This document shows, in pieces, positions 11,957-64,000 of a stretch of DNA of 64,000 nt. The position numbers were made by a program, and so were the translations under genes. This DNA comes from Lunularia cruciata (lineage: Eukaryota > Streptophyta > Marchantiopsida > Lunulariales > Lunulariaceae). The stretch spans positions 29,836,333 to 29,900,332 of the forward strand of contig OX419756.1 in NCBI GenBank assembly GCA_948567375.1. The letters run 5' to 3'. Position 1 is the first letter of the stretch. Every line of letters begins with the position of its first letter. Below the pieces are notes generated by a model. It saw only the letters and a program-made list of their open reading frames with translations. It ran no database searches and was not told the DNA's origin.

Positions 11957-12085
11957 AGCCTAAAAAAGAAAAAAGGCGACCGCGTAGGAAAAGTGAAGGA
12001 TGGGAAGACCCCATCAAGCCGTACAAGGGAGAGACAAAAAAGGTAACATGGGGCTAAGCCCCAATAGAGTCAAGCCTAAAAGAAA
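11957..12085 (-). mobile_element. Short 5'-truncated LINE tail copy with target duplication
   Basis: About 100 bases (11975-12072) match the 3' tail of the R2-like LINE at 20037-20140, in the same (minus) orientation. The insert is flanked by direct repeats: AGCCTAAAAAAGAAA ending near 11971 and AGCCTAAAAGAAA at 12073-12085. A truncated 5' end, an intact 3' end and a duplicated target of about 13-15 bp are the marks of target-primed reverse transcription. Both tail hairpins (GATGGG/CCCATC and GGGGC/GCCCC) are preserved. Confidence 0.8.
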
Positions 12086-13035: not shown

Positions 13036-13227
13036 TTTCACTGTGTTTTTGACGTTGCCTAATTATAATTATTTTGGGGCTTAGCCACATTTTACCTCTC
13101 ATCTCTCCCTTGTACGGCTTGATAGGGTGTTCACATCCTTCTTTTTTTCTACATGAACGTCCTTTTCTCATTATAATAATCTTTCTTTCACTATGCATTT
13201 GACGTAGCCTAAGTATAATAATCTCAT
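13036..13227 (+). mobile_element. Second short LINE tail copy, opposite orientation
   Basis: 13073-13165 reads as the sense 3' tail of the R2-like LINE, starting at GGGGCTTAGCC and passing through TCTCCCTTGTACGGCTTGAT. It is more diverged than the copy at 11975. The flanks repeat each other imperfectly over nearly 40 bases: CTTTTCACTGTG...TTGCCTAA before, and CTTTCACTATG...TAGCCTAA after. This suggests a long target duplication that has since drifted. Confidence 0.65.
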
Positions 13228-16796: not shown

Positions 16797-17820
16797 GCCC
16801 ACATTATATTCATGCATTTAAGAACTGGGTTGATAATACCTTATGTTTACCTGTTCTTCCTTATAATTTTGAGAGGTTTTAAACTTGTAAAGATATAACA
16901 TAAGAGATAATTCTAATTCTTCATAACTTCTAAGATTATCTTACTCTATTTCTTCTAATATGATAAATATCTTTAATTTGGATTTTTCATGTGATGTTGC
17001 TAACAGCTGCATCTTTTTAGGTTTTAAACATACATATCACTACATTTAAAATAGAACTCATACTATAAACATCAAAATAATTGTCATCATCTAACCTTCA
17101 AAACTAGTAGGTTTGATTATCAATGAGCTAATAAGCTAATGTCAATACTTTCTAACATATGCTTCCTTCTCTCTTAGTTGACTCATCCATTCTCTGTGCT
17201 ACTAGAGCATGTTTTTGTTCTTGCATTAGCAAGGGAAGGGTGCAAGCTCTTGGATCCTAGCTCAACCATACATTAGTGTATTCCACCTTGCACACATTAC
17301 TTTCTCTACAATAATCAGGTTCCACCAAGGTTTAGTCCATTCATCTTCATTAGCCACTTCATTCTACACTAGATCTAGCATCAATCCATATGATATGATG
17401 TCCTTGTTGTTGAGGACAAAAAATAGCTAGCTATCCATGATGTTATTGGTGATATAATATTTGTCATGAGAAAGATGATACCTTGCTTGGAGGAAGTGTT
17501 GGTATGCTTTGTAGACAACACGAGTTAGCACAAACTTATACTTGGTCCAAGATGAGCAGGTGATAAAAGTGGATATTGTGGTTATGGACCCTACATGTGA
17601 TGTAGTTTTAGAGAGAGTGATCACTCATTCTTATGGATGGGCGGCAAGTGGAGCAATAGCATGCAAGATCTCCAAAGTATAGGAGTATGTAGTGAGGCCA
17701 CCTCTTTGTTCCTTTAGCCTTGGAGTATATAGAGTGATTGATGCAACATTTGATAAATTTTTCAAGGAGTGCATGAGGACATATCATTTTAGACCACTCT
17801 CTCATATTTCACATCATATG

Positions 17821-18369
17821 TGTAATACCATTAGCTAGACATATTATCTAGAAGTGGAAATTGGCTTGGTAATATCTTTAGTGATGTTATCTATGATGGT
17901 TTAAATGGATTAGATAGAGAACTCACCAAAAGAGTACTTCCACTAAAAGTGCAGAGGTTGAAAACATTGAAAACTTTAGAGCCAATTTTGGAGGCCTAAA
18001 CAAATGAAATATTCTCTCCTCTTTGGCCAAAAAGATACTACTATCTCCTTCCCTTCCTTGTTTTTCTCATTGAGATGTTTTCAATTGTACCTCATCCATG
18101 TTGTTATGAGCTTCCTACAAGTAGATTCTCCATAGATTCCTTAACCAAATAGGACAAGGATATATATCTCATCAATCCATGCAGCTAATTTAAGGGTGGA
18201 CCTTGCTGATATGTTACCAATCCATGTATTTGATTCAAGAGTGTAGCTCCCTTTGAGTGTATCCTCTTTGCTATATAATAAAGACAAGGGGCATCGGAGT
18301 ATTGAAGAATGAAACCTTGTGTTTCTCTTGTGTTTTTCTAGGGGTTTTTCTTGTCCTTGGAATATAACA
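17821..18369 (+). mobile_element. Solo LTR nested in the LINE relic
   Basis: Fossil long terminal repeat of the same family as 23615-24317. It begins TGTAATACC, carries the TATA-like CTATATAATAAAG in plus orientation and ends near 18369. It is the most diverged copy of this family in the window and is shorter than its relatives. The target duplication is no longer clear. It lies inside the LINE relic, so it arrived later than that LINE. Confidence 0.65.
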
Positions 18370-18394
18370 ATACTTGAGATAATATGTGTCCATT

Positions 18395-18830
18395 GCTCTA
18401 CAAAGAGCATTGGCTGGTGCAATTCATAAGAAAGCAAGCACACTAGGTGATGCTTCTTCATATACTCTGTCTATTTTTAGACCATATGACTTATATAGCT
18501 CAAATATCTTAATTGCTATATAGAGAGCAATGGTTGGTGCAATTCATAAGAGACCAATCACACTAGATGATGCTTCTTTGGATATTCCATTTTTTGGTAG
18601 ACCATACAACTAGTTGGTGCAATTCATAAGAGAGCAATCTCACTAAGTGATGCTTTTTTAAATACTCCATTTGTTTGTTTACCATATGAATTGAATAGCT
18701 CAAATATCTTAGTTGCTCTATAGAGAGCACTAGTTTGTGCAATTCATAGGAGAGCAATCACACTAGGTGATGCTTCTTTAGATACTACATTTGTTTAGAC
18801 CAGACGACTCGTATAGCTCAAATATCTTAA
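18395..18830 (+). repeat. Tandem units of the LINE ORF 3' end
   Basis: Four related units of the sequence that encodes the last residues of the LINE protein lie in a row, with spacings of 120, 80 and 120 bp between equivalent points. In the larger LINE copy this segment occurs once (20160-20290, minus strand), so the repetition arose in this lineage or in its source copy. Confidence 0.75.
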
Positions 18831-18960
18831 CTTAGGTGTTATAAGGTAGATTCCTCTTACATATACAATTGGGGCTTAGTTCCATTTTACCCTTGTCTTT
18901 TCCTTATACCACTTGATGAGTTTTTCACATCCTTCTTGTTATCCTACATGATCATCAATT

Positions 18961-19660: not shown

Positions 19661-20036
19661 TAGTATTAGCCCCGTGCATGATGCACATGGCAAAAAGGAC
19701 CCTCTTACCATATATCTTGTCCCCCTCCCGCCCAACCCTATCCTATATCCTCTCCCATGAACAATTCCATCCATCATCTCTCCCCGTCCGGTGTCTCAAT
19801 CCCCTTGAGTAGTATCGTCCCCCTCTCCACCCTATGTCCCCTCCCAAAAACAATTCCATCCGTCATTTCTCTCCCCGTCTCTCCCCTTAAGTAGTATCGT
19901 CTGTTGTCTTCATCTCTAAATATAGCTCCATCCAAGGTCCCTATCTGTTGTTCACGTCCCCATGAACAAGTCCGTCCATCGTCCCCCGTCCCCTAAGTAC
20001 CTACCCTGGTAGTAGCGACAATCACATCTTATAAGA
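19661..20036. repeat. Pyrimidine-rich imperfect tandem repeats with palindrome
   Basis: The segment opens with a palindrome, GTGCATGATGCAC (about 19674-19686). It continues as C/T-rich DNA in which a unit of about 90-110 bp (CTCCC..GAACAATTCCATCC..TCTCCCCGTC) recurs about three times (near 19755, 19845 and 19955). It adjoins the LINE's 3' end directly. It may be the target site or part of an older element. Confidence 0.5.
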
Positions 20037-20140
20037 AAAAGGCGACTGCGTAGGAAAAATGAAGGATGGGAAGACCCCATCAAGCCGTACAAGGGAGAGA
20101 CAAAAAAGGTAACATGGGGCTAAGCCCCAATAGAGTATGT
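20037..20140 (-). other. LINE 3' tail with two hairpins
   Basis: Non-coding tail after the LINE stop codon, read on the minus strand. GGGGC-TTA-GCCCC overlaps the stop codon, and GATGGG-GTCTT-CCCATC follows. The tail ends in GTCGCC plus a short T run, not a poly(A). The same end is found at the short copies at 11975, 13073 and 52452. It is probably the structure the element's own reverse transcriptase recognises; that role is inferred from other LINEs with structured tails. Confidence 0.65.
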
Positions 20141-23100
20141 ATGAGAAATTTGCCCTATTGCACCTAAGATATCCGAGCTATGCAAGTCGTACGGTCTACA
20201 CACAAATGGAGCATCCGAAGAAACATCACCTAATGCGATTGCTCTCCTATGGATTGCACCAGCCATTGCCCTCTGTAGAGCAATGGACACACGCGGTCTA
20301 AAGTAAGCTACAAAATATGAGAGTGAGAGTGGTACCCCCTGACACCTAACATGATAAGCTCTCACGCACTCCCTGACAAATGTGTCAAATGCCGTGTCCA
20401 TTGCTCCATATAACTCCAAGGCTAGAGGAACAAAGAGGTGACCTCGCTGCATGCCCCTATACTTGGAGACCTTGCGACCTGCTGCTGCACTAGCCGCCCA
20501 TCCAAGGGGCTGGGTAATCACTCCTTCCAAAACTGTATCCCGCGTAGGGTCCGTGACCACGACATTTGCTACTGTCACCTGATCATCTTGGACCAAGTAT
20601 AAGTATGCCCTGACATGTGTAGTTTGCAATGCATACGAATGCTCCCTCCAAGCTAAGTATCCACTCTCTCGTGCCATAGCAAACACTATGTCTCTAATGG
20701 CATCATGTGTAGCTATCCTCTGTCCTCCAAAAGGACACCGTGTCATGTGGACCACCGCTGCATCTAGTGTAGAACCACACTCACAAGTGAGTAGTGAAGA
20801 TGCAGATGGGTGGACCAAACCTAGGCAAAACCTCATCGCTGTAGAGAAAGTAGCCGGTGCGAGTCGGAAAGCCCTAATGCATGGTCGAGCTAGGATCCAC
20901 GAGCCTGCATCCTTGCAGGAGCAAGAGCGTAGACGTGCTCTAGTAGCCTGAGGAATGGACGAGTCAACTAAGAGAGAATGTAGCGTATGCTCACATTGTC
21001 GCTCCATCAAGGAAGACTATAGACCTCTAGTCCAATCTGACAATAGTGAAGCAAACGATGGAAAACCCTCTTGTGCTTGTGGGGATAGACTATCTCTCGT
21101 CTGCCGCAATAACACCTGGAGAGAAAAAGATCCTCCTTCCACCTCTGTCACATAAGTCTCCAAAACCGGCCTATCAGCAACCACAAAATGAGAGGCAAGT
21201 AGGGGTGCCGAGAGAGCCCAACTACCCAAAAATGCTATAAGTGCCATCTCCTCCATAGAAAGCAAGCCAACCCCACCACATGAGATTGGTAGAGCCGTTT
21301 GTCTACGTGCCAAATCCCTTGTCACACACTCAAAAGTCCCTGGTCCAATAATATCACCAAAGACTCCCATAATCCTCCTATCAAATGCTCTCAGACGTGA
21401 TAGGAAGGACAGTGAGGAGGGAACTGTACAGATGAGGTAGGATGGTCGACGAGCAATACTGGAAGAGAGTATACCAAATGCCACCTATGGATCTCCTAGT
21501 AATGGAAGGTCATCTACATGGAGAACATCCTCTGCAAGGGCAGCGTCCAAGAAGCGTGTGACAAAATCCTCCGATCCTACTGGCACTCCAAGAACACGAA
21601 GTCCATCTGTGGATGTGATACACCCCTCTGGAAGCTCAAGGTGGGGAGGGATACCTAAAGAGAACCATGCCCTACACTTTGACACCTTGACTCTCAAGCC
21701 TAAGAGATGTAGCTCGGTAGTCAAGTAGTCAAAGGCATGCCTAATCTGATCTACAGGGCCTATGATGTGTGTATCATTTGCCAAGGAAGGAAATACACAA
21801 CCTGGCATGGCCAAAGTAGTAGATAGGAGAGCTCTAAAGTGAGCCATGGCAAATAAGGCCTCCCCCAAAGGATCTCCCTGTCGTGTACCAACAGCTTACT
21901 CCAAGACGGTGACTCCCTCCTGTGAACCACCATGCTGGTAGTAAAGGGAAGTAGGAGAGCCATAAAAAGACCACACAAAAGGAATGAGACTCGCCAAGGA
22001 TCCACCAGCCTCCCTAAGCTCTCTAAAGATGGATGCACGTGAGACGCTTTTAAAAGCGTTCTCAACATCCACCTGTAGGACGACCCACTCTGGATGGATA
22101 TCTAGGAGTGCTTTAATGCCTAAAGATATAGCCTCACATCCTCCAAGTGTAGCTACTCCAAACTGATGTGGACTAAGGTGTTGTCGAAAGTGAGAACGAT
22201 GCTAAAAGACAATGGTACAACTGACCAAACGCAAAAAGATCTCTCCAATAGCAATCGGTCTAATGCCTCCCTTGTCCTTCTCAATCGCGAGAAGTCGACT
22301 AGCACCTAAGACCCAACTAACAGACATAGGAATGTCTCCTCTCGCTACTGCTGCAGCCACCTGAAACAACTTGGTAAAATGACTAGAAGGATCATCTGCC
22401 TGGAAGCAATCTCTAAGGTGCTCATAAACCATCCCTGGCAAGCCTCCTGAGGAAAGGCGAAGGGCAGTGCACAATGCTTGTGCAAATAGCGACCTATCAA
22501 GACATAAAGGCTGCTCATGTTGATAATCTAAGACCTCTAGTGGTAGTCCCTCTACTGCTATAGGATGCAATGAGCGTAGGGAAGAGATGGTCTCATCAGT
22601 AGGACTCGCTATAGACAAAGAGTGTAGCGCTCGTGCTACTCTACTAAACTCTCCCGCCTGACCCAATGTCCTACATCGTCGTAATCGAGTGGAATTTGTG
22701 GTATCATGTGGTGATGCCTGTCTCCTAAATCGTGTAGCCCTAACAGACTCCTCCTGAAGCACTGCCCAATCCCCTGCTTGGAATTAACAAAATCTAGCCG
22801 CCACCTCTCTATGCCTCGCGTGTCCCTCTCTAGCATAATGAAGACACCATCGAGGGAGTAGGAGGAATAAGAACCACGCTAACTCGTCCAAGGGATCACG
22901 TGCCAAACGATCCAGTGGTAGGCAAAAAGCCTGTCTAGCCTCATCATGGAGTGTGTGGGGTAGCCTATGGAATAGACGTGGACATGGAAAACTAGTCTCA
23001 AATAACCCCAAAATGCAACCCGCCTGAGAAGCTAACCACTCCCACGACTCGATCGGTATCCCTGGAACAATCAACGAAGGTATAGAAGAAGCGTGCATAA

Positions 23101-23287
23101 TCCCGAGTGTCATTGCTATCGATGTAGTCGCTCGTCTCACGTGGGCATCCCAAGTGGTCCAATTATAGTCCTTGTGCATCCTTCCCACATGGATCTTTAC
23201 CCCTTGCGAGGTAAAGCGTCGGTGACACACCGGGCATGGTGTATCCCGATCCGCTCTAGGCGACCCCACATGGGAAGGTGTAGCCAT
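20120..23287 (-). pseudogene. LINE ORF: C2H2 finger, reverse transcriptase, RLE endonuclease
   Basis: Coding part of the LINE above. In a live copy the protein would bind the element's RNA and a genomic target, nick it with the endonuclease and copy the RNA in place. The first in-frame Met after the leader gives MATPSHVGS, with the zinc finger about 18 residues later. All open segments share one minus-strand frame. Each interrupting codon is TAA or TAG and none is TGA, which fits loss of Gln codons by C-to-T change. The RLE Asp is Asn here (codon at 20564-20566), while the relic near 17560 still has Asp. The stretch after the RLE, to SHTYSIGA at the end, is well kept in the relics, so it is a true part of the protein. 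Confidence 0.8.
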
Positions 23288-23614
23288 GGCTAGCACAAGA
23301 ATAATGATAGTAACACATGATACTCCTCTCCATATCTCCCCATATCTGCAAAACCACAACCCCTCACATCACAACTCACATAAAAAAGCAATCTCTCCAA
23401 ACCCTAAAATCTATAAACTCTCATAACTTTCAATTTCCATCTCCAAAATTTTCAAATTAAATTCACATGGAACTTAATCATGAAAACCAAGAGATTAGAA
23501 ATGAAAATTCTCAACCCATCACTCTCAATGTATAATGATCACTCTCAATCCTAAAAAAACTAAAAATATTTGTAACTTTCTACTCCATTCTCCATAGTCT
23601 TCAATCTAGGTACC

Positions 23615-24317
23615 TGTAATACCAAGGGTTAGCCATATGATCTAGATGTAAAATTTGGTTTGGTAACATCTAGAATGATGTTTTACATGATGGTCAAAAT
23701 AGATCAGATAGAAGTATCACCAAAAGAGTACTTCTACTAATAGGGCATAAACCTAAATAGACCTGAGAACCTTAGAACCAATAGCTAGACATATGATTTA
23801 AAAGTGAGAATTGGTTTGGTAACATCTGGAAGGATTTTACACATGATGGACTAAACAGATCAGAAAGAGGTATCACCAAAAGGGGACTTCTACTAATAGA
23901 GTAGGAACCGAAATATGCCTGAAATCTTTGAAGGCAATTTTGGAGGCCTAAACGGATGAATTAGGCCTCGAAAATGTGCGGATTTCCTGCTTTGTCTCGT
24001 CGAGAGCTTTCCAACGGTACCTTACTCATGTGATTCTGAGATTCCTACAAGAAGATTCCCTAAAAGATTCCCTCCGGTCAAAGCTTGTTTGACCAACCAG
24101 ATAGGACCTAGACCAGACAGGTCACCCATCCAAGTAAGTAATCCAAGGGTGGAACTTGCTGACATGTCACCTATCTGTGTCCCTAATCCTATGGTGGAGC
24201 TTCCTTGGAGGAGATCCTCTTTGTCTATATAATAAAGAGAAGGTGTTCCTTTGGGGCATCGAATGTTTGAGTGTGCAATCTGTGTTTTCTCTCTTCTCTT
24301 GTCCTCGGAGTATTACA
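23615..24317 (+). mobile_element. Solo LTR with perfect 5-bp target duplication
   Basis: Fossil solo LTR of 703 bp, starting TGTAATACC and ending GTATTACA, flanked on both sides by GTACC (23610-23614 and 24318-24322). A TATA-like CTATATAATAAAG near 24224 sets plus polarity. Its U3 part contains a duplicated segment with a period of about 156 bp (equivalent points 23635 and 23791). No internal retroelement sequence is attached. Copies of the family lie at 17821, 61569, 62541 and 63778. The superfamily (Copia or Gypsy) cannot be told from an LTR alone. Confidence 0.88.
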
Positions 24318-25776
24318 GTACCAATGGAATCGAAATTGAAAAACAAAGAGAATCGACTATTCACTCGAATACTCGAATGCTACATGCTAGAGAGCACTCA
24401 GAAATTATCAAAATTGTCTCACGTCTCTCCCTCTCCTCTCCCGTCTCCACACTCCCCCAGACCAGAAATCTTCTACCAAATCGAGTCATTGCATTGTCAT
24501 TCTTCTAAGTAAGTAAGTAAATAAGATTCTATAAGATTTATCTACTAATGCATGTATACAGTAAATCAATTCTTAATATTATATTTGGTCTTTCCTAAAT
24601 CTCTTGTTTTAATGTATTAAATCCGTCAAAGGTTCTCAAAATAAGACATTTGTTTAAGTAACTTGTATATTTCTTCACTCTTGAAACTTTATAACCTTAA
24701 AACATCCGGTTCATTCATATTGATGTAATTCTTCCTATTTTCCTTGACAATGTTTGTATTATTTTTTGGAACTCCCCTCTTCGGTAGTCGTGTACTTTCA
24801 TCTTTTACTGTATTTGTTAATCTAGTTCTTCATCTTGTCATTTGTTTTTGTATATAAAATCTCTCCGTTCCATGTGTTATTTCTTCTATCCACATCTTCA
24901 AAATTACAAAAATATATGTAAATATTGGAAGCTCTTATAATCGATCATCAAAATTTTCTAAAACTTGCATGATAACGTATTCTATATATCTTTATGTTGT
25001 TCATTTATCACAATAAATATCATTAAAATGTGATATGTAGAGACTTTACTCCTTCGTATAGGAATATCTAGAACTTGTATGATAGTTCTTTAATATTCTA
25101 TATATCTCATATGTTTTTCACTCATCAGAATAAAGATCAGTAAATTGTGACTCACTGCCAAATAGTCACTCACGCGCCACGTCAAGCGCCAAAGTAACTG
25201 CTAAGTCTTTCTGCCAACGTTGGGCTCCGTTAAGTCGAAGTATCAAAGTTGAGGTACAGCTGAGTCTTTCTCTTATAGAACAGAGAAAGTACAGAAGGGA
25301 GAGAGAGAGAGAGAATGACGTGAAAATGTGGAGAAATCATCGCGTTGTATTTATGATTGCGTTTGCTGCATTCGGTTCCGGTCTACGAGATTGACTGCGT
25401 CGGTGAGATCCATGTGCTGCAACAGATGGTGCATAATGAGGTGAAGCTCTCTGAGATGATTTTAATGCACGATGAAGACGTATGCGTGTGGGATTGTGAA
25501 ATTGGGGTTATAAAATGGTCAGAGGGGATGGATGGATGAAGGGAGTAGGGATGTAGAGGAGGAGGAGTGGTTTGAGTATTCGAGTGTTGTTGACCGTGGC
25601 TGAATTTGTGTCCCTGTTTCTGCACAAGATGTGGGAGAAGATTGTGGATCTTGTACGCTTGGTGCGTCGATTTTTTATTCTGATAATTTTGCTTTCCTGT
25701 TGGTCAGTGATTCAGGGTAAGCCGTGGTACTTTCTTCTGTCGTTGCTGCTTTTAGCCATCGTCAATTTATAAGAAG
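24318..25776. other. Intergenic DNA and uL14m upstream region
   Basis: AT-rich to about 25140, then GC rises, marking the likely promoter and leader of the uL14m gene. A (GA)n tract lies at about 25296-25314. A 66-codon open frame at 25572-25772 encodes a hydrophobic peptide and ends four bases before the uL14m start. CTTTCCTGTTGGTCAG ending near 25706 looks like an intron acceptor, so the leader may be spliced and that frame may not reach the mature mRNA. Confidence 0.45.
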
Positions 25777-26511
25777 ATGCTAGGAGCAGTCGTACGTAGA
25801 GGTTCTGGCTTGAAGTCCAACTTCTTGCCATGGTCATTGCCTGTTGCGGCGAGTCGATCAAAGGCGGTTGTCGATTGCAGTTCATCATCGTCTTCATCAC
25901 CACGTTCGAATGAAGTTGTCCGGAGCTTAGCAGAACAAAGGTTTGATGGTGGATCGTTAGGGTCTAACCGATCAGTAGATCGGAGTACCGAAAGTGGTGT
26001 TTTAGGGTTTGGGTCGCAAGTTGTGAGCAATTTGTTTGCGAGATGTGGTAGAGAGCAGTTGATATATTCCCCGATGCAAGGGCTGAGTGGTGCTCTCATC
26101 TCCAATTGGAGCCACTCGGGTCCCACGCAGTCGAATCAAGTTAGAGGATTTATTCAGCTGAAGACGAATTTGGAAGTAGCGGATAATTCAGGAGCAAAGC
26201 GAGTGCAATGCATAAAAGTGATGAAAGGATCCAATGCCGCAGAAATCGGAGATATTATCATGGCATCTGTGAAAGACGCCCAACCTCGTGGTAAGGTGAA
26301 GAAAGGAGAAGTCGTTACATGTGTCGTTGTGCGTGCTGCCACTCAAAAATTGAGACGAGACGGGAGCGAGATCAAGTTTGACAAAAGTGCGGTGGTTTTG
26401 GTTAACAAGCAAGGTGAACCAATTGGAACTCGTATTTTTGGACCTGTACCACATGAACTAAGACGGCGCAAGCTGGTGAAAATATTGACGTTAGCTGAGT
26501 ACGTTGCATAA
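25777..26511 (+). CDS. Mitochondrial ribosomal protein uL14 (HUELLENLOS-type)
   Basis: Single-exon gene for 244 residues. The last 119 residues (from [18 protein letters not shown]) match bacterial-type uL14 over its full length, with [38 protein letters not shown] and [10 protein letters not shown]. The protein sits at the large-subunit interface near the GTPase centre and bridges to the small subunit. The first about 125 residues are Ser/Arg-rich, low in acidic residues at the start ([15 protein letters not shown]) and not conserved, which fits a mitochondrial presequence; nuclear uL14m genes of plants (HUELLENLOS group) have this form. Plastid uL14 is normally plastid-encoded, so a mitochondrial role is more likely, but targeting is inferred. 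The presequence is long for the family. Confidence 0.92.
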
Positions 26512-27604
26512 GTTGATGGCTTCAGTCGTTTGTTGGACGTGAAGACGTTTTGTTCTCACTCAGATGTCACAGTACAAATTGCAAGCGTAATGTACTGGAC
26601 TAGACTGTGAAAATGAATTTCTCAAGAAAACTCTGATTTTGTGTATTTACTTTCCCCATCTCGCGTACGCGGAATCCGAGACGGCCAGAAATCTCAGCGA
26701 ATTTGTCCAAGCATCTGTTGGAATCAACCAATACCGTACGACCTCCCCATATCTCTGGATTTAGGTGCTCTGTAATACAGCATTATCTCCATACGTGATC
26801 TCATGTTCGTATGGGGGTGCTATACAATTTGATATGTACAACCTTTTGCGGTGTGCTTCGTTCAGTGGTTTCACAAGTTGATGCAGATTGGTACCTGTAT
26901 CAATGTCTTCCAGGCTTCATAATTCTTCCTCATTACGCTGCTTTCAAAATCTTTGGAAATTAAAACTTGTAAACTCCTGATCGAGACTGTGGATGAATTC
27001 AATCCCGGAGGGAATATCTGTGGGGAGAGATGCAAGGTAAGTTTGCTATTCCGCGTGAACTTACATCATACTTCTTCATGTTCAGTACTGTAATTTGTTC
27101 CGTGTCCAAATGTATGCTACAGAGCTGTGACCGAAACTCGGTACGAGGGGTGTTGGCCTATCCGGCCACAATGCATTTTCAAGTTGGTTAACGAAGTTAT
27201 TCTGTTGTGCATATATCTAATGACGGTCCTGTTACTTAGGTTCTGTGAGGAGTCAAGGTATTCCAGCAGTCATTAAACTTCTAAGGAGTGATATCCTAAT
27301 CCTGATGTACTTCGCTTGATTTCTCTTACCCTATCGGCAAGACTCTTCATTGGGACCTTCTTTGTTTCTCGTTGCGAGCTTCACTCACTTGTTTAAAGCT
27401 TAGTAGGTGATCGGAGCCAGATCAGTGACTTAAAACCCCGGAATGCCTCGGCCGGGCGGGTCCTCTCTCCACTTTTTTAACGGCTGGATGGGGTCTTTGA
27501 ATTATTGCTACTCGTCTTCTGTTTAGACTTGTTGGTGTACATGGGCCCATACATGTTCTATCTAGAGACGTGCTGAAGTGTGATGAACATCACGTGGTCT
27601 ACTG
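26512..27604. other. 3' flank of uL14m, no further gene
   Basis: Likely 3' untranslated region and intergenic DNA. No open frame with recognisable content. Confidence 0.4.
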
Positions 27605-28162
27605 CTACATATATCCATAGCGCTTGCTGCGATATACTATATATCCTGTCCTCTTTCGCTTCGCTCTCGTTACACTGTTCCACGTCGATATATCTCTGCA
27701 GAAGCACCATCCACTATGCTCCCGCATTGTTGCACTCCTCCCTTCCCCAGCTAATTCCCTCCCTATTATTTCTCCCTCGCTCTTTACCTGCTTCATGGTT
27801 CATACCTGACTTTCGACCTCCAGTTTCTCCAGTGTTCCTACCCGGCTCCAGCCTACAGTTTAATTTTCTTCGTTCATGCACTGCTTACTGATGGTCAATT
27901 ACACAATGTTTTATATTTCTAGAATTCGTTTGAATAGCTGTTATCGATTTCAAGTTGTTACTAGTCCTTTAGATATATGTTGTTCTCAATTTGTTGCAAT
28001 TATGCCTTTGCTTCAGGTTACATTCAACGCATTCTACTTTATGGATTGATCACTATTCTCGCATTGTGCATAAAGTATATCTTGGTTACCGATCATATGC
28101 ATTTGATGAGTTCTGGATCACCCTTTCCTAGAACGGCTTCTGCTCTCATCTACCTATATCGA
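27605..28162 (-). repeat. HTR copy with 13-bp target duplications
   Basis: An HTR copy on the minus strand runs from 28149 (ATGAGAGCAGAAGCC) to 27618 (CGCAGCAAGCGCTA), about 532 bp. It is flanked by near-identical direct repeats: CTACATATATCCA (27605-27617) and CTACCTATATCGA (28150-28162). This copy defines both ends of the element. The 13-bp duplication fits a retroposed (LINE- or SINE-mobilised) element better than a cut-and-paste transposon. There is no poly(A) tail. The overlapping 103-codon frame (27580-27891) is a pyrimidine-rich chance frame. Confidence 0.75.
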
Positions 28163-29526
28163 GTGATTTGATATAGTGTTTGACAGAGCTAACTAGTTTC
28201 GTTTAATTACTCTATTTTACCAACACAACCTACTTGATGATGAGCATTCCTGCATCCGCAGATATCCTTCAAATGAATTTTCGAACTCTCTTCGTACTTC
28301 CTGAATGACCAAGACAAAAGCCTTTTTGTATCCGTGAACTTCCTACTCTGGACGCACTCGTTTTCACCTCCCTCTCCACATATATGTCCTTAATCATAGT
28401 CATCAGTCCTTATTCTGTAGCAGTCGCTGTTCTTAATGCAAATTCCCATTTCTGGCTCAGATGTATATCGCTCGTGGGGTGAACTTGCACCGATTCTTTC
28501 GACATCATATATGCTTTGAAATAAACACCTTGTGCTCAATTTGCAAGCGAGCATGTAAATGTGCGTGGATATCGTCCGCTTTCTGTGTTCTTTAGTGTTT
28601 GCTGGAGGATTCAATCAAGTATGGATGTGGTCTTATCAAATATATTTGTTGTTTTGGTCTCTCCGTGGAAGATTTACCAATGGTTGTCGTCGTAAATGAC
28701 GGGGAAGGTTCGGAGCTTCTGTATCACCCCATCTTTTGCCAGCCGAAACTCATGAGACAATATGCATTGTGTGTGCAATCTGCACGCCAGCTCCTCCGGG
28801 CTTAATTCGGTTGTCTGTGCCATCGAAAGTCATAAAATACTAGCTGATAGTCAATTGTAGCTAGCTAGCATTGTCGATGTTGGGCTGCAACCTGCAGTTT
28901 AACAGACCAAGAAATTCTCCGAACCTAATTACCGATGAGCAGATCATAGTGGTCACGTATCAGAGAGGCTATTTCTAGGTAAAGAACTTGGATTGAAAAC
29001 TGCAATATCTTGCATGGACCAGCCTAGTCTATGGCGCTCGTTGGAATCTGAAAGTCAATGTAAAGCACAAAGATGCCATGATCAAGTAGCTGATATCAGT
29101 TCTTTTCGGAGAAATTTCATTCCAGGTATGGGCAAGCCAGGTACCAAAGGGTAGGGTCTACTGTAGGACATCTAAACGATTTGTATTAAATTTAGTTGAA
29201 GTGTCGATGATTTGAGAACTTCAGAAATAGCATTTCGTCATCATGACCACTATGGGTCCATCTGCTTTAAGTACAGCTGACCTCAGGTTCTGTAACTGAT
29301 CAGCTTTGACCACATCACGAAAAGGGAGAATGATTACACCACTACGACCTCCCCTGTATTCCTCAGCTAGAAATGAACTGTGCTGTTTCTAACAACATCA
29401 GGTTCGTTTGTTTTTGAAGCGGTGGGCACAGGTTTAACAAGAAGGATAGGAGGGCCCACACGGAGGGGAGGAGCCATCGATGAGCATCCGCACAAGGATA
29501 AAATCTAAGATGAAATAGGATAACGG
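28163..29526. other. Intergenic, no supported gene
   Basis: The 68-codon frame at 28599-28805 matches no family I know. Nothing else stands out. Confidence 0.4.
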
Positions 29527-29810
29527 GAAGGATGAAGGTTTGATGGGAAGACCCATCAAATCGTACACGGATAAAATCTAAGTGATAACATAGAATTAAG
29601 CTCAAAGAGGGAAAATAGAGTTGAGCTCTAATAGATATAGACATGAGAAATTTGAGTTATTGTATTGGAATATCAGAGTATTCAAATGATTTACACACTT
29701 CGACACCATTCAAAGAAGCATCTCTTAATGTAATTGCTCTCTAAGGAATTCCATTGCATTAACAAGTGTTCTCTGTTGAGCATTGGTTGATGCATGCAAC
29801 TCATGTCCAG
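29527..29810 (-). mobile_element. Diverged LINE 3'-end relic
   Basis: Matches the R2-like LINE's tail and the end of its ORF in the same orientation as 20037-20290: GATGGGAAGACCCATCAA, then AGAGTTGAGCTCTAATAG, then ATGAGAAATTTG and CATCTCTTAATG. Divergence is much higher than in the copies at 11975 and 52452, so it is an older insertion. It is truncated at the 5' side near 29810. Confidence 0.65.
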
Positions 29811-41041: not shown

Positions 41042-44000
41042 TTATTTACCTTCCTCACAGAAAGGGAACATAGCACCTTCCCAGACATCATCTCCAGGAT
41101 CTACTCCTTCATTATCCTCACTCTTACTGTGAGCATCTGTACTTTCTGCATCTTCGGCCCCCTTACTAGTGCCTTGAATGTCTCGATCCACCGCAACCTC
41201 GTCTCCATCGGTCTCATGTCTTTTGCTGAAGAGGTATTCAGGCCGGTCATCAATGTCCCGCGCAACAATACCTCCTGGGGAGAGACGAATCAACGGTTCC
41301 ATATCCGCATTTTCGAGTCCCATGTCCCAAGGCTGATGACCGGATGGAATAGGACTATCTTCTGACTGTTGTGGAATCATATCGTCCAGACTCATGTGAT
41401 CATACATGGCCAGGATTTGCCCATTGACTACTTCCGTGATCACGTTAGTGGATTGTTCGGGATCTACATTCGGTGCAGGTCCAAATTTGTGAGTCTCTGA
41501 TTGTAACTCGGACGATACAAGAACTCCTCGATTACGAGCGTCCAACGAGTCGTGCTGAACTCGTGGACTTGTTCCAGTTGACGAGTCAAAACCAGACACT
41601 CCTCCGACCTGCCCTTCACATTTGGTACTTGAGGAGCAAGATCCACTGTTTCCATCTGCAAGAGAGAGACGGACGTCTCTCCGGCCAAGTCTCGTCATGC
41701 TTAACGGAGGGGAACCCATGGCATGAGCTCCAACCTCCGAGCTGGTTGAAATCGTTGGTTCGGACATGAAGTTCGACTGGAAGTAATCATTACTCATCTG
41801 CTTTGGGTTCAGAAGTGTTCCTTGTGAAGGATGTTTTCCATAGGGAAAAGGAGCTCCGTTGCCTGCCTGTTGAGGATGCCGGAAGTAAGAGGGAGGCGAA
41901 TCAAAAGCCATTTGGGTGTTCCCTTCAACGGGAATCTCTGGAAAATCTGGAAGTCCCAAAATTACAACGACAGACAACACGAAATGGATCAAAAATCAGA
42001 ACAACTGTGTCATCGCTTCCTAAATACAGGAAAAGGGAAAAGCGGTGGCGGATAACTGTAAACCAAATTCGCGTCCTATGGCCATTAAGAAAAGCGAGAC
42101 ATGGATTCACAAAACGATCTTCAGAAACAACTAAAGTCCTCGTTTTGTAACTGCTTAGCAGGGATGAAAACCACTTTTCGGCACTCGAACTTACAGTGCT
42201 GCTTCATCTTAGCTAGCCAAAACCTTTCTTAAGAGATACTTCAAGAGACTTATTGTGTAGATATGCTGCCTTTAACTCCCAACTTTTGATTCGAAATTGA
42301 GAGGCTGGTAAATCTTGGAGAAAAACCCGAGATTCCTACTCTTACAAATAGTTCTAGAAATTATTAATAAGTATTGGTGTTGATGTTTAACCTTGATAGT
42401 TGTGATGAAAACCATTCATAGTCCCCACATTTGGGCCCCCTTCAGACCCAAAACTGCTTCCGCTGCTTGTCCGATGGATGTGCTTACCACCACCAAGATT
42501 TGTTGCATTCCCACCCTCTTGATGGCCATCATCCACGAAAAGCTGCATGTGCAGGCCTGACATAGCTGGTAAGCCCTCAGATGCCATTTCTCTACACACC
42601 CCCCATGAACCAACCGGAAAAGAGAATAGTCAGAACTTCGTATATATAAGTATATGAGAGCAGAAGCCGTTCTGGGAACGGGTTATCCAGAACTCATGAA
42701 ATGCAAATGATCGGTAACCAAGATGTCCGTGATGCACAATGCTAGAAAAGTGATAAATCCATAAGGTAGAATGCATCGAATGTAACCTGAAGCAAAGGCA
42801 TAATTGAAACAAATTGAGAATAACATATATCTAAAGGACTAGTAAATAACTTGAAATCGCTAACAGCTATGCAAACGACTGCGAGAAATAGAAAACGTTA
42901 TGTAATAGACCACCAGTAAGCAGTGCGTGAACAATGAAAATTAAAAACGTGGGCTGGAGTCGGGTAGGAACACTGTAGACGCGGGATAGTCAGAACTTCG
43001 TATATATATAGGTATACGAGAACAGATGCCGTTCTGCGAACGGATTATCCAGAACTCATGAGGTGCAAAAGATTGTTAAGCAAGATATACATGATACGCA
43101 ACGCTAGAGTAGTATTAAATCCCTAAGTTAGAATGCATCGAAGGTAACCTACAGCAATGGCATAATCGAGGCACACATATTGAAACACCTGCATATATAG
43201 AGAAGAAACATCATCAAATGAAAGGCGAAGTAAATGTCACTTAGAAACCAGTAGATAGCAACACGCATATTTGAGATGCAGCCATCAAAGAAGCGGATGC
43301 CGACCTCCCACATAAGTAGAGGAAAAATACATCAGGAATAAACGGCCAACTTAAACGGATGGAGAAAAACTGGTGTCAAGAGACAAAACGTAATCTGTAA
43401 ATATCGCGGTTCAAGGAAGATCTGAGTCAGGAAACGAAAATCGTGGAAGGTGTAGGAGAAAGAGCACTGGAAGTAGAAAATATCGCGGGGCAAGGAAGAT
43501 CTTAGTCAGGAAACGAAAATCGTGGAAGGTGTAGGAGAAAGAGCACTGGAAGGAGAAATCGCTCAGAGAACGAGGGAAGACGAGCAAAGCATCCAAGGAC
43601 TGGATATCGATATATCACAGCAAGCAAACTTCGTATATATGTGCCTACTTTGTGGTAAAAGGCCTACACAACGGAACTGAAGAGGAAAATCCTGCACTTC
43701 ATTTTTTGAGAGCCATTATTCCGAAGCCCTGAAGAATAGCGACAATTCTGGAGATCATCCGAAACGTAGCGACTCTAGTACCAGCATAGCTCACTGAAGT
43801 TGGAAACAAAATAGTTTAACATGGAGGTTACTTGCGTAACGCGACAATTGGACAGCCCAACCCTGTGCAGTTTTCTTATTCATATCAGTGTTGGACAATT
43901 CCCGAAACAGTTACAAAAGCACTTCCCCAATGTGATGGGACGTCCAGTCTTTCTAGTGACGTAAGGTTAATGAATGAGCACTGAGAGATAGTATGCTACT

Positions 44001-51240: not shown

Positions 51241-52430
51241 CCCTTAACAACATCGATTGCTTTGTTTGTTAAAGCAACCGAATGTGAAACCTTGGTTGAC
51301 ATGGTATGTTCTTGCTTTGCTAATCTATTTAATCTTCAAGAACAAATAAAAAGAGCTAAAAAGTAGGAATGTTATAGGTGGTACGTACGCATCAGTACTA
51401 TCCTGGATATAGGTAGATAAGTAGGACAAGATTTGACCTCCAAAGTGAAACCTAGTCATAGTAAAAGCCACCTAAGATACAAATCTCCTCTAAGAAATCC
51501 TTTTCATAACCTTCTTTTATCCAGAAAATGGAATATCAAGCCTGGAAATTCTGAGATTGAATGCCCGGTTATTTAATTTAAATTACAAAGAGGATTGTCA
51601 ACCGTTGTCAACCGGCAAACATTCTCAAGTCGCTTGACTTTTCCATATTATAACGGCCAAATCATGTCTAACACCATGCATATGATTATTTCTTCCCGGT
51701 AAAGGCATTTCATAGAATGGAAATTGCGGAATATTTTGATATTCATAACATAGACTATAGTTCAGACTGATTTAATAGTAATTTCATAATTTATAAAGGG
51801 TGTACTTTACCAAATTAAACTATCGGTTACCATTGGATGTAGATAATTATCTGATAGCACTTTTGTACAGGCAATGAACCATGGCAGCTTCAAAAATGTT
51901 TGGAAATTCTACTAATAATAAATCATAAAAATGGATTATCTTATATTTTTCATAGTGATTAATTGTGAATATTATTTTAACTATTTAATGACTTTTTAAA
52001 TCTCAAGCTGACCTTGAAATCACTTGAGCTAGAAGCAATGTGTATTAATACTCTAGTAAATAATATTTTAGAAATATATATCTCAGAAATCATATCCTTT
52101 TAACTTTTCATCCAATCTACGGTTTAAACTAATATGAATATATTTTAATGAGTCTGGCTAAAATATACATATTTGTATCAACACAACATTATGAATAGAC
52201 AGAGTGTAAATTTTATGATAATATTTTTCTTCCCGTAATATGATTTCTAATTTTCAATATCTGGTGATGAGATAATGAACACAATCTACTCAAATTCCAG
52301 TATATGGATAAAAGTAGGGACCAGTCGAGAGACAAACCCCCTTTCAGAAATGAGTGATTTTTTGGCTTGTGATTTATTAGGGTGCTTTTTCCAGATTTTC
52401 TGAAAAAGACTACGGGAATAGGTTTATTTC
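51241..52430. other. AT-rich intergenic DNA
   Basis: No gene, array or paired repeat recognised. Confidence 0.5.
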
Positions 52431-52595
52431 CATACAGGTTATTAGGACGAGAAAGGCGACCGCGTAAGAAAAACGAAGGATAGGAAGACCCCCATCAAGC
52501 CGTACAAGGGAGAGACAAAAAAGTTAACATGGGGCTAAGGCACACGTTACTTTTTTGGTATTTTGCCATACAGATTATTAGGATAGGGTTCGGTA
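52431..52595 (-). mobile_element. Third short LINE tail copy with imperfect target duplication
   Basis: 52452-52540 matches the R2-like LINE's 3' tail in minus orientation, with both hairpins recognisable (GATAGG..CCCATC; GGGGCTAAGG is cut short). The flanks share an imperfect direct repeat: CCATACAGGTTATTAGGA before, and CCATACAGATTATTAGGA after (about 52569-52586). About 25 bases of unmatched sequence lie between the truncated end and the second repeat. Confidence 0.7.
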
Positions 52596-61568: not shown

Positions 61569-62354
61569 TGTAATATCCTGAGGACAAGAGAACTCTTCAA
61601 GAGAGATACAAGGGAGAAAACACAGATTTCCCACTAAATCCTCCGATGCCCCAAAGTAGCACCTTCTCTTTATTATATAGCCAAGGAGTATCTCCTTTAA
61701 GGAAGCTCCACCATAGGATTAGGTACATGGACAGGTGTTATGTCTGCAAGCTCCACCCTTAGATTACTTTTTTGGATGGGCGACATGTTGGTCCTGGTCC
61801 TATCTGGTTGGTCAAACAGGCTTTGATTGGAAGGAATATTCTAGGGAATCTTCTTATAGGAATCTCAAAATCACGTGGGTGTGGTACCGTTCAAAAGCTC
61901 TTGGCAAGACAAACTAAGGGAGGAAAGATCTTGGAAAGAAAAAAACAAGGGGAAGGAAAGGCTAGCCTTTTCTCCGTGGGGAGCCCCTCACATATTTTTT
62001 AGGCCTAATTCATCCATTTAGGCCTCCAAAATTGCCTTTGAAGTTTTCAAGCCTATTTTGGCTTGTGCACTATTAGTAGAAGTGCTCTTTTGGTGATACC
62101 TCTATCTAATCTTCATTCTTCATCATGTGTAACATCCTTCCACATGTTATCACCCCAAGTTTCACCTCTAGATCATATGCCTAGTTATTGATTCTAAAGT
62201 TTCCAAGCATGTTTTGGTTTTTGGCCTATTAGTAGAAATACTCTTTTGGTGATACTTCTAGCTTAACCACGTAGTCCATTATGTATAACATCATTCCAAA
62301 TGTTACCAAACCAAATTTCATCTCTAGATTGTCTATCTAACTATTGGTATTATA
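61569..62354 (-). mobile_element. Solo LTR with perfect 5-bp target duplication
   Basis: Fossil solo LTR of 786 bp, same family as 23615-24317 but in opposite polarity (TATA-like motif reads CTTTATTATATAG on the plus strand near 61668). TCTAG stands on both sides (61564-61568 and 62355-62359). The duplicated U3 segment is present. No internal part is attached. Confidence 0.87.
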
Positions 62355-62540
62355 TCTAGCCAATAGGATTTAGAGTGCTTTTGGAGGTGATTCTTAAATC
62401 ACCCTAGAGTAAGTATGCGTGTCCTTCATTGTAGGGAGGAGATCCTATGCAACAAAAAATTGATTTCTTGTTGTGGAATTGGAATTTGAGTTACTTGGAA
62501 ATGGTTCATTAAATTAAGGACAATTGCATCCTTGGGTTAG

Positions 62541-63276
62541 TGTAATATTCCGAGGACAAAAGAAGAGAGAAAACATAGATTTCACACTCAATCATCCGGT
62601 GCCCCAAAGGAGCATCTGCACTTTATTATATAGACAAAGAGGATCTCCTCCAAGGAAGCTCCACCATAGGATTAGGTATATAGATAGGTGACATGTCAGC
62701 AAGCTCCACCCTTGGATTACTTACTTGGATGGATGACATGTCAGTCTTTGTCCTATCTGGTTGGTCAACTATGTTTTGACCGGAGGGAATCTTCCAATAG
62801 GAATCTCAAAATCATGTGGATGAGGTACCATTGGAAAGCTCTTGATGGGACAAAGCACGAGGGAGGAAAGGTTGGCCTAACCTTGGTAGGGGGAGGGGGA
62901 GGGGAAGAATGTGCATATTTGTGAGGCCTAATTCATTAGTTTAGGCCTCCAAAATTGCCTTCAAAGATTTCAGGCATATTTTGGTTCTTACTATATTAGT
63001 AGAAGTCCCCTTTTGGTGATACCTCTTTTTGATCTGTTTAGTCCATCATGTGTAACATCCATCCAGATGTTACCAAACCAATTTTCACCTTTAACTCATA
63101 TATCTAACTATTGGTTCTAGGGTTTTCAAGTCTATTTGGTTTTTGCCCTATTAGTAGAAGTACTCTTTTGGTGATACTTCTATCTGATCTATTTTTACCA
63201 TCATGTATAACATCATTCTAGATGTTACCAAACCAAATTTCACTTCTAGATCAGATGGCTAGCTCTTGGTATTACA
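62541..63276 (-). mobile_element. Solo LTR with perfect 5-bp target duplication
   Basis: Fossil solo LTR of 736 bp, starting TGTAATATTCC and ending GGTATTACA on the plus strand, flanked by GTTAG on both sides (62536-62540 and 63277-63281). It has the same polarity as its neighbour 186 bp away. Its own target duplication shows it is a separate insertion and not half of a longer element. Confidence 0.9.
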
Positions 63277-63281
63277 GTTAG

Positions 63282-63777
63282 AAACTTTGATAAAAGATAT
63301 GACCACTACTCACAAGGAAGTAAGAAAGTAAGTATGCACTTTGCTTCACACCAAGGAGTAGATAGAGAAGGAGAAATGAAAACCTTGAGAAGAAAAATAT
63401 CTAAGCTTGCACAATCATGAACAAAAATCCTTCTCTTGGAAGTGATCCATATGGTAGATCTAGACCTTCATGAGTTAGAAACAATTCTTCCTTACTATCA
63501 AGAATTGGATGTGACCATCATCAACCATGCAAATTTGGTTGCCCACCTTCATCAAGTTGCTCAAGCGGAAACTATAGAGAAGAAAATAACTTTTGAGGAG
63601 CTTAGGAAGATCAAGGAGTAGCTTGGGGCCAAAGAAGAAACTTTTTGTGAATGGGAGTATACAATGGACAAGTGGAGGAAAGTAGAGAAAACAAGATGGG
63701 AGAAGTGTGATAAAGATCTAAAAAGAATGCAAGTAGAGGTAAAATTCATCAATATGAAGATCAAGTAACAAAAGGCA
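63282..63777. other. Spacer between LTR copies, with a short open frame
   Basis: A 61-codon plus-strand frame (63436-63621) is Leu/Glu-rich, with the look of a coiled coil (DLDLHELETILPYYQELD). It is too short to assign and might be a fragment of a larger repeat. Confidence 0.25.
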
Positions 63778-64000
63778 TGTAATCTTCCAAGGATAAGAGA
63801 CCTTGAGAGAAACATAGGAAAAGAAACACAAAGCTTCACACTCAATATTCTGATGCACCAAAGGAGCACCTTGACTTTATTATATAGAAAAGAAGATCCT
63901 CTCAAAGGAAGCTCCACCCTTGGATCAGATACATGGATTGGTGACATGTCAACAAGCACCACTCTTAGATTAGTTGCCTTCATGGGTGATATATCCATCC
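63778..64000 (-). mobile_element. LTR of the same family, cut by the window edge
   Basis: Begins TGTAATCTTCC and continues with the family's R/U5-like and TATA-like parts (CTTTATTATATAG near 63875). Polarity is as in the two LTRs to its left. Whether it is solo or belongs to a longer element cannot be seen here. Confidence 0.8.

Follow-up and report, generated by a model that had tools for sequence, protein, structure and literature searches.

A decayed LINE copy, probably of the RLE type, in a plant genome

Our analysis of a 64-kb stretch of Lunularia cruciata DNA, referred to below as the window, revealed a dead LINE copy whose kind appears sparsely documented among land plants. We consider it probable that this copy, designated copy A, is the remnant of a single-ORF, RLE-type LINE that would have inserted in a TPRT-type manner, and that its short relatives arose where the reverse transcriptase (RT) stopped; this reading is not tied to any clade. 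Direct support comes from the order of its domains, its decay, the 3'-end copies in the window, two clear TSDs and the nearness of its RT to R2 among the proteins of the PDB. Judged from its sequence, the element likely counts as an RLE-type LINE with an R2-like mode of action, and placement in the R2 clade lies outside this claim.

The ORF of copy A occupies 20120..23287 of the minus strand and opens with an ATG at 23287 and closes with a TAG at 20122..20120, a length of 1056 codons counting the stop. It is interrupted by five internal stops (TAA 22784, TAG 22202, TAA 21896, TAG 21485 and TAG 21017), and the domains continue in a single frame through all of them. The same DNA holds six stops in the ORF frame, with the final one counted, versus 34 to 72 in each of the other five frames, which marks copy A as a gene in decay rather than an accidental frame. 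With its in-frame stops and its lost catalytic residues, copy A is a pseudogene. Each of the five stops could have derived from CAA or CAG by a single C-to-T change. An earlier note on this DNA had described a single frame of about 1056 codons with an R2-type layout, and its coordinates agree with those of copy A. The order of domains that it gave was also found, but the frame is not intact, and neither the minus strand nor the five stops had been mentioned.

At the N-terminus, the segment CPVCHRRFTSQGVKIHVGRMH (23174..23236, minus strand) follows the C2H2 finger pattern C-X2-C-X11-H-X4-H; this is a pattern match alone, as the Pfam zinc-finger matches at the site fall below the cut-off. The RT and thumb region follows on the same strand, with approximate limits of 21020..22468, and includes the motifs RPIAIG, QVDVENAF and GTRQGDP. 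In its aspartate box, AND takes the place of the expected ADD, so one RT catalytic residue has been lost. The RVT_1 domain scored 44.4 bits against a cut-off of 29.6 on the read-through of the RT with X at the stops, and 20.2 bits, below the cut-off, on one of the six stop-free pieces, which was the sole piece to match. A comparison of the whole read-through with the PDB gave three matches at E up to 1, each of them an R2 protein, the best at 6.9e-7. With the RT alone as the query, the matches up to E 10 were the same three R2 proteins and a ribosomal protein (E 1.8); the L1 ORF2p chains present in the set, one of which (8sxt) is matched by an R2 RT fragment at 4.5e-26, stayed unmatched. For R2Bm (8gh6 and 8ibw), also present, the element gave no match up to E 10. 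The RLE LINEs met in these searches were all R2. The proposal that the RT is of the LINE type is thus borne out by both RVT_1 and the R2 matches. The earlier note had also named a position of the RT inside L1 or RTE as a sign against its reading, and the sequence search speaks against such a position within the limits of a comparison made with L1.

Between the RT and the C-terminus, a CCHC-like knuckle, CECGSTLDAAVVHMTRC, is found at 20735..20785 (minus strand). Its spacing, C-X1-C-X9-H-X3-C, departs from the C-X2-3-C-X7-8-H-X4-C described for RLE LINEs in the consulted part of PMC5678591, and ordinary membership among the RLE LINEs is therefore less secure.

The C-terminal region contains a putative RLE-like domain (20396..20713, minus strand) with H861, E882, Y895, N908 and a KVSKY motif from 939. 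The two acidic positions are thus Y (895) and N (908) in copy A and N and D in copy C, so that neither copy has both aspartates, whereas R2 has D at both, and copy A reads GAM where GXW would be expected. The spacing of these positions is close to that of R2: the steps along Cys-His-Glu-Asp-Asp are 10, 21, 13 and 13 in copy A, counted with Y and N in the Asp places, versus 11, 21, 14 and 13 in the R2 of 9nl2. KVSKY starts 31 residues past the second acidic position, further downstream than in R2Bm, in which KX2KY lies about 17 residues past it. The pentapeptide itself conforms to KX2KY, given as a motif of RLE LINEs in the part of PMC5678591 consulted.

Similarity searches with this region gave a weak and collinear signal. 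On their own, the C-terminal 298 residues met no nuclease in the PDB at E up to 10, the best match being a glutaminase at E 0.67, and the C-terminal piece had nothing above the cut-off in Pfam. The whole-protein PDB alignment places the C-terminus of copy A on the R2 knuckle and RLE, with a score that is meaningless when taken alone. A profile built from three R2 fragments gave the C-terminal piece 5.9 bits, the highest value among the window's 285 fragments with at least 60 aa, ahead of a runner-up at 3.7, a rank somewhat favoured by the piece being among the four longest. This score was equalled by one of 5000 shuffles, of which hmmsearch reported 2479. An hhalign comparison of the piece with R2 yielded E 0.0068 over 72 collinear columns, with a probability of just 5.6%. 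AlphaFold single-sequence models of the C-terminal piece and the RT were both unusable (mean pLDDT 37.5 and 35.4). Taken together, the C-terminus of copy A is likely an RLE whose similarity to R2 is weak and collinear. The earlier assignment of an RLE endonuclease is plausible from the weak profile similarity and the near-identical spacing, although the region alone finds no nuclease in the PDB and nothing above the cut-off in Pfam. A complete lack of RLE similarity in a profile search, which had been named as evidence to the contrary, did not occur, weak as the similarity is.

Comparison within the window placed the element at six sites, copy A and five more, with identities to copy A from 98% down to about 61%, which bears out the earlier suggestion that multiple copies of various ages lie within these 64 kb. 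Three of them are 3' ends alone: copy B (11971..12072, minus strand; 98% over 101 nt), copy D (13073..13185, plus strand; 85% over 81 nt) and copy E (52448..52556, minus strand; 92% over 91 nt). These 3' ends are about 100 nt long, and their starts fall within about a dozen bases of one another, at or beside GGGGCTTAGCCCC, a GC hairpin (GGGGC-TTA-GCCCC; 20116..20128, minus strand) that overlaps the TAG stop of the ORF. The 5' end of copy E is an inverted, fold-back piece at this hairpin. Comparison with copies B and E also sets the 3' end of copy A, giving a 3' UTR of about 84 nt (20036..20119, minus strand) that carries the stem-loop GATGGG-N5-CCCATC. Folded as a single strand, the 3' end did not outperform shuffles in any of the four copies (z -1.19 for A, -1.01 for B, +0.99 for E and -0.64 for D).

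Copies C and F are older. Copy C (17156..18947, plus strand) is a 3' part that is 73 to 81% identical to copy A in pieces and is interrupted by an LTR-like insert at about 17821-18370; beyond the insert, at 18371-18800, some 100 nt of the ORF end recur about four times in tandem. Copy F, the oldest (29526..29786, minus strand), is a 3' part with about 61-66% identity to copy A. Within the first block of copy C, the differences from copy A comprise 43 C-to-T, 36 G-to-A, 8 T-to-C and 12 A-to-G changes along with 46 transversions; the CpG ratio of copy C is 0.08 versus 0.53 in copy A. This substitution bias and the loss of CpG fit deamination of methylated cytosine. Weak 3'-end matches at 27464, 39876 and 6770 (E 0.018 to 0.93) were discarded as chance.

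Two of the six copies are flanked by clear and long TSDs. That of copy D spans 37 nt (13036-13072 / 13186-13222; 84% identical) and that of copy E 27 nt (52583..52557 / 52447..52421; 85% identical), and neither was equalled in 2000 shuffles. A possible TSD of 13-15 nt at copy B is marginal, being equalled by 122 of 2000 shuffles, and a convincing TSD is absent for A, C and F (812, 774 and 1921 of 2000 shuffles, respectively). A 26-nt AT-rich stretch in the 3' flank of copy C is matched (81%, E 0.002) by DNA lying about 270 nt before the start of copy C, and the pair was rejected as a TSD because it is non-adjacent.

The earlier note had raised the prospect of a preferred target site. When 60 nt of 3' flank from each of the six copies were locally aligned, with two offsets for copy D and 1000 shuffles per comparison, no common sequence beyond chance emerged in 20 comparisons; the lowest count, 16 of 1000, came from copy C against one offset of copy D, whose other offset gave 656, and the remaining counts were 65 and higher. 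Copies D and E align at 70% over 140 nt when copy and flank are taken together, and this weak match extends about 40 nt into the flank; the flank alone is insignificant (619 and 226 of 1000). Moreover, no rRNA, snRNA or tRNA match was found across the window, where Rfam gave none at the gathering score. Since the flanks have nothing in common and matches to rRNA, snRNA and tRNA are lacking, no preferred target was seen, and on these six copies the sequences do not support one.

The 5' end of copy A is undefined. R2 bears an HDV-like ribozyme at this end, and a search for one in 19900-24700 gave no Rfam match at E up to 1. The sole Rfam match of any kind in this interval was DUF805b RNA (E 0.058; 19.3 bits versus a gathering score of 35.6), and it falls within an LTR-like repeat. 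This repeat, of about 705 nt, resembles a solo LTR, lies directly upstream of copy A (23611-24315, TGTAATAC...GTATTACA) and is flanked, by eye, by the 5-bp duplication GGTAC. Relatives at 62543-63280 (83%) and at about 61610-62352 (80-85% in pieces) each have, also by eye, an apparent 5-bp duplication of their own. A further decayed member lies inside copy C, a piece is found at 63822-63989, and within the family a unit of about 156 nt is tandemly repeated (61991-63299 and 23621-23932). A separate dispersed repeat around AGAGCAGAAGCCGTTC occurs in both orientations at 374-445, 890-961, 42622-42693, 42984-43055 and 27958-28159.

One gene of the window agrees with a plant host. A mitochondrial uL14 gene at 25777-26511 has as its best PDB match the HLP protein of 6xyw, a plant entry, and GT47, SSF and BCAS3 domains are encoded nearby (four of seven ORFs matched Pfam). 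The idea of an R2-type layout in a plant genome is therefore supported as regards the domains and the neighbouring uL14 gene, but the copy is dead and its RLE similarity is weak.

The mechanism that we propose follows that of R2. The intact protein would bind DNA through its N-terminal finger, and its C-terminal restriction-like endonuclease, with the activity predicted for it, would nick the target. The nick would then prime reverse transcription of the element's own RNA (TPRT), presumably starting at the short, pyrimidine-rich 3' UTR. The RT would often stop early; three copies in the window end at the GC hairpin, which lies some 100 nt in from the 3' end, and short 3'-end copies would result, two of them with long TSDs. 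We read repeated stalling of the RT at the stop-codon hairpin as the probable reason why copies B, D and E start where they do.

These three copies might instead represent a short, non-autonomous, SINE-like unit that carries the 3' end of the LINE. Such a unit would account for the coincidence of their starts, which random 5' truncation of an element of >3 kb would not readily give. However, no common head sequence was found in the 600 nt upstream of B, D and E, where a match between B and D is identical DNA counted twice. The unit also holds the stop codon of the ORF, and in copies A, C and F it adjoins the end of the ORF without a break, and the GC hairpin at its start, where the 5' end of copy E folds back, could stall the RT. 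We regard a SINE-like unit as unlikely. Copy A itself is highly unlikely to be a plant LINE of the APE type (L1 or RTE) that has been taken for the RLE type, although the LINEs described in plants are usually L1 and RTE. A plant review, in the part consulted, counts three LINE superfamilies and discusses RTE (PMC10741241). An APE-type reading was rejected on the lack of a match between its RT and L1 ORF2p, on its RLE-like C-terminus and on its domain content: none of the six ORF pieces (20123 to 23359) had a reported APE or RNase H domain up to E 1, and the single frame begins with a finger pattern.

The clade of the element is a different matter. The chance is close to even that it belongs to a different RLE clade, be it NeSL, Utopia, Hero, R4 or CRE, or to no named clade at all, and lies outside the neighbourhood of R2. 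R2 would then top the PDB searches because it is the sole RLE LINE met there, and the divergent knuckle spacing of copy A points the same way. Utopia, as far as described in the consulted part of PMC4640811, offers a similar layout, non-animal hosts and a weakened target specificity in crocodilians. Nothing decisive stands against such an assignment, which is compatible with the mechanism proposed above.

No report of RLE LINEs in land plants was met in the literature searched, which was seen in part, with subscription papers mostly outside its scope, and this is weak evidence. The sources consulted, in part, include PMC4640811, PMC5348765, PMC5678591, PMC3636483, PMC12203849, PMC5035012 and PMC10741241; among them, RLE-type LINEs are described as earlier-branching LINEs (PMC5678591), and R2 is said to be under development for gene insertion (PMC12203849). 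A lineage of RLE elements resident in plants, if true, would widen their host range and provide a natural example of an RLE inserting with no fixed target. As a tentative and rather doubtful extension, land plants might harbor an RLE LINE clade of their own, distinct from R2, NeSL, Utopia, Hero, R4 and CRE, characterized by the C-X1-C-X9-H-X3-C knuckle, scattered insertion, TSDs of tens of bases and a stop-codon hairpin that limits many copies to about 100 nt.

Relatives were sought in other collections. Four scans of viral_contigs, one with an R2 fragment as the query, confirmed none of 3, 39, 1 and 70 pattern matches; none of 152 was confirmed in genome_contigs, and the C-terminal piece of copy A had no match in plasmids. 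Its C-terminal motif arrangement is one that may be associated with unannotated plant proteins in public databases.

Among known systems, the plant L1 and RTE elements have in common with the present element a LINE-type RT, copies without the 5' part and TSDs, and they differ in the APE and RNase H domains not found here and in the unmatched L1 RT. Dualen/RandI elements of green algae bring an RLE into the green lineage, and Dualen also has an APE domain. Its RNase H is noted in the consulted part of PMC4640811. The RLE would be shared with our element, whereas neither the APE nor the RNase H was found in copy A. The same source describes Utopia as a U2 snRNA-targeting RLE LINE of oomycetes and animals, with one to three N-terminal fingers, an RT, and a finger and RLE at the C-terminus, and with RNase H in the oomycete members. 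By this description, the order of fingers, RT, finger or knuckle, and RLE, in copy A an RLE-like region, is the same as ours; the U2 target finds no match in the window, and the oomycete-type RNase H was not found in copy A. R2, described as animal and rDNA-specific in the part of PMC12203849 consulted, differs in its host, in its insertion into 28S rDNA, while our copies lie outside rDNA (0 Rfam matches in the window), in the spacing of the knuckle and in the long, differing TSDs seen here. It shares with copy A a single ORF ordered as finger, RT, knuckle and C-terminal RLE-like region, its RT is the closest among solved proteins, and its key RLE positions are similarly spaced.
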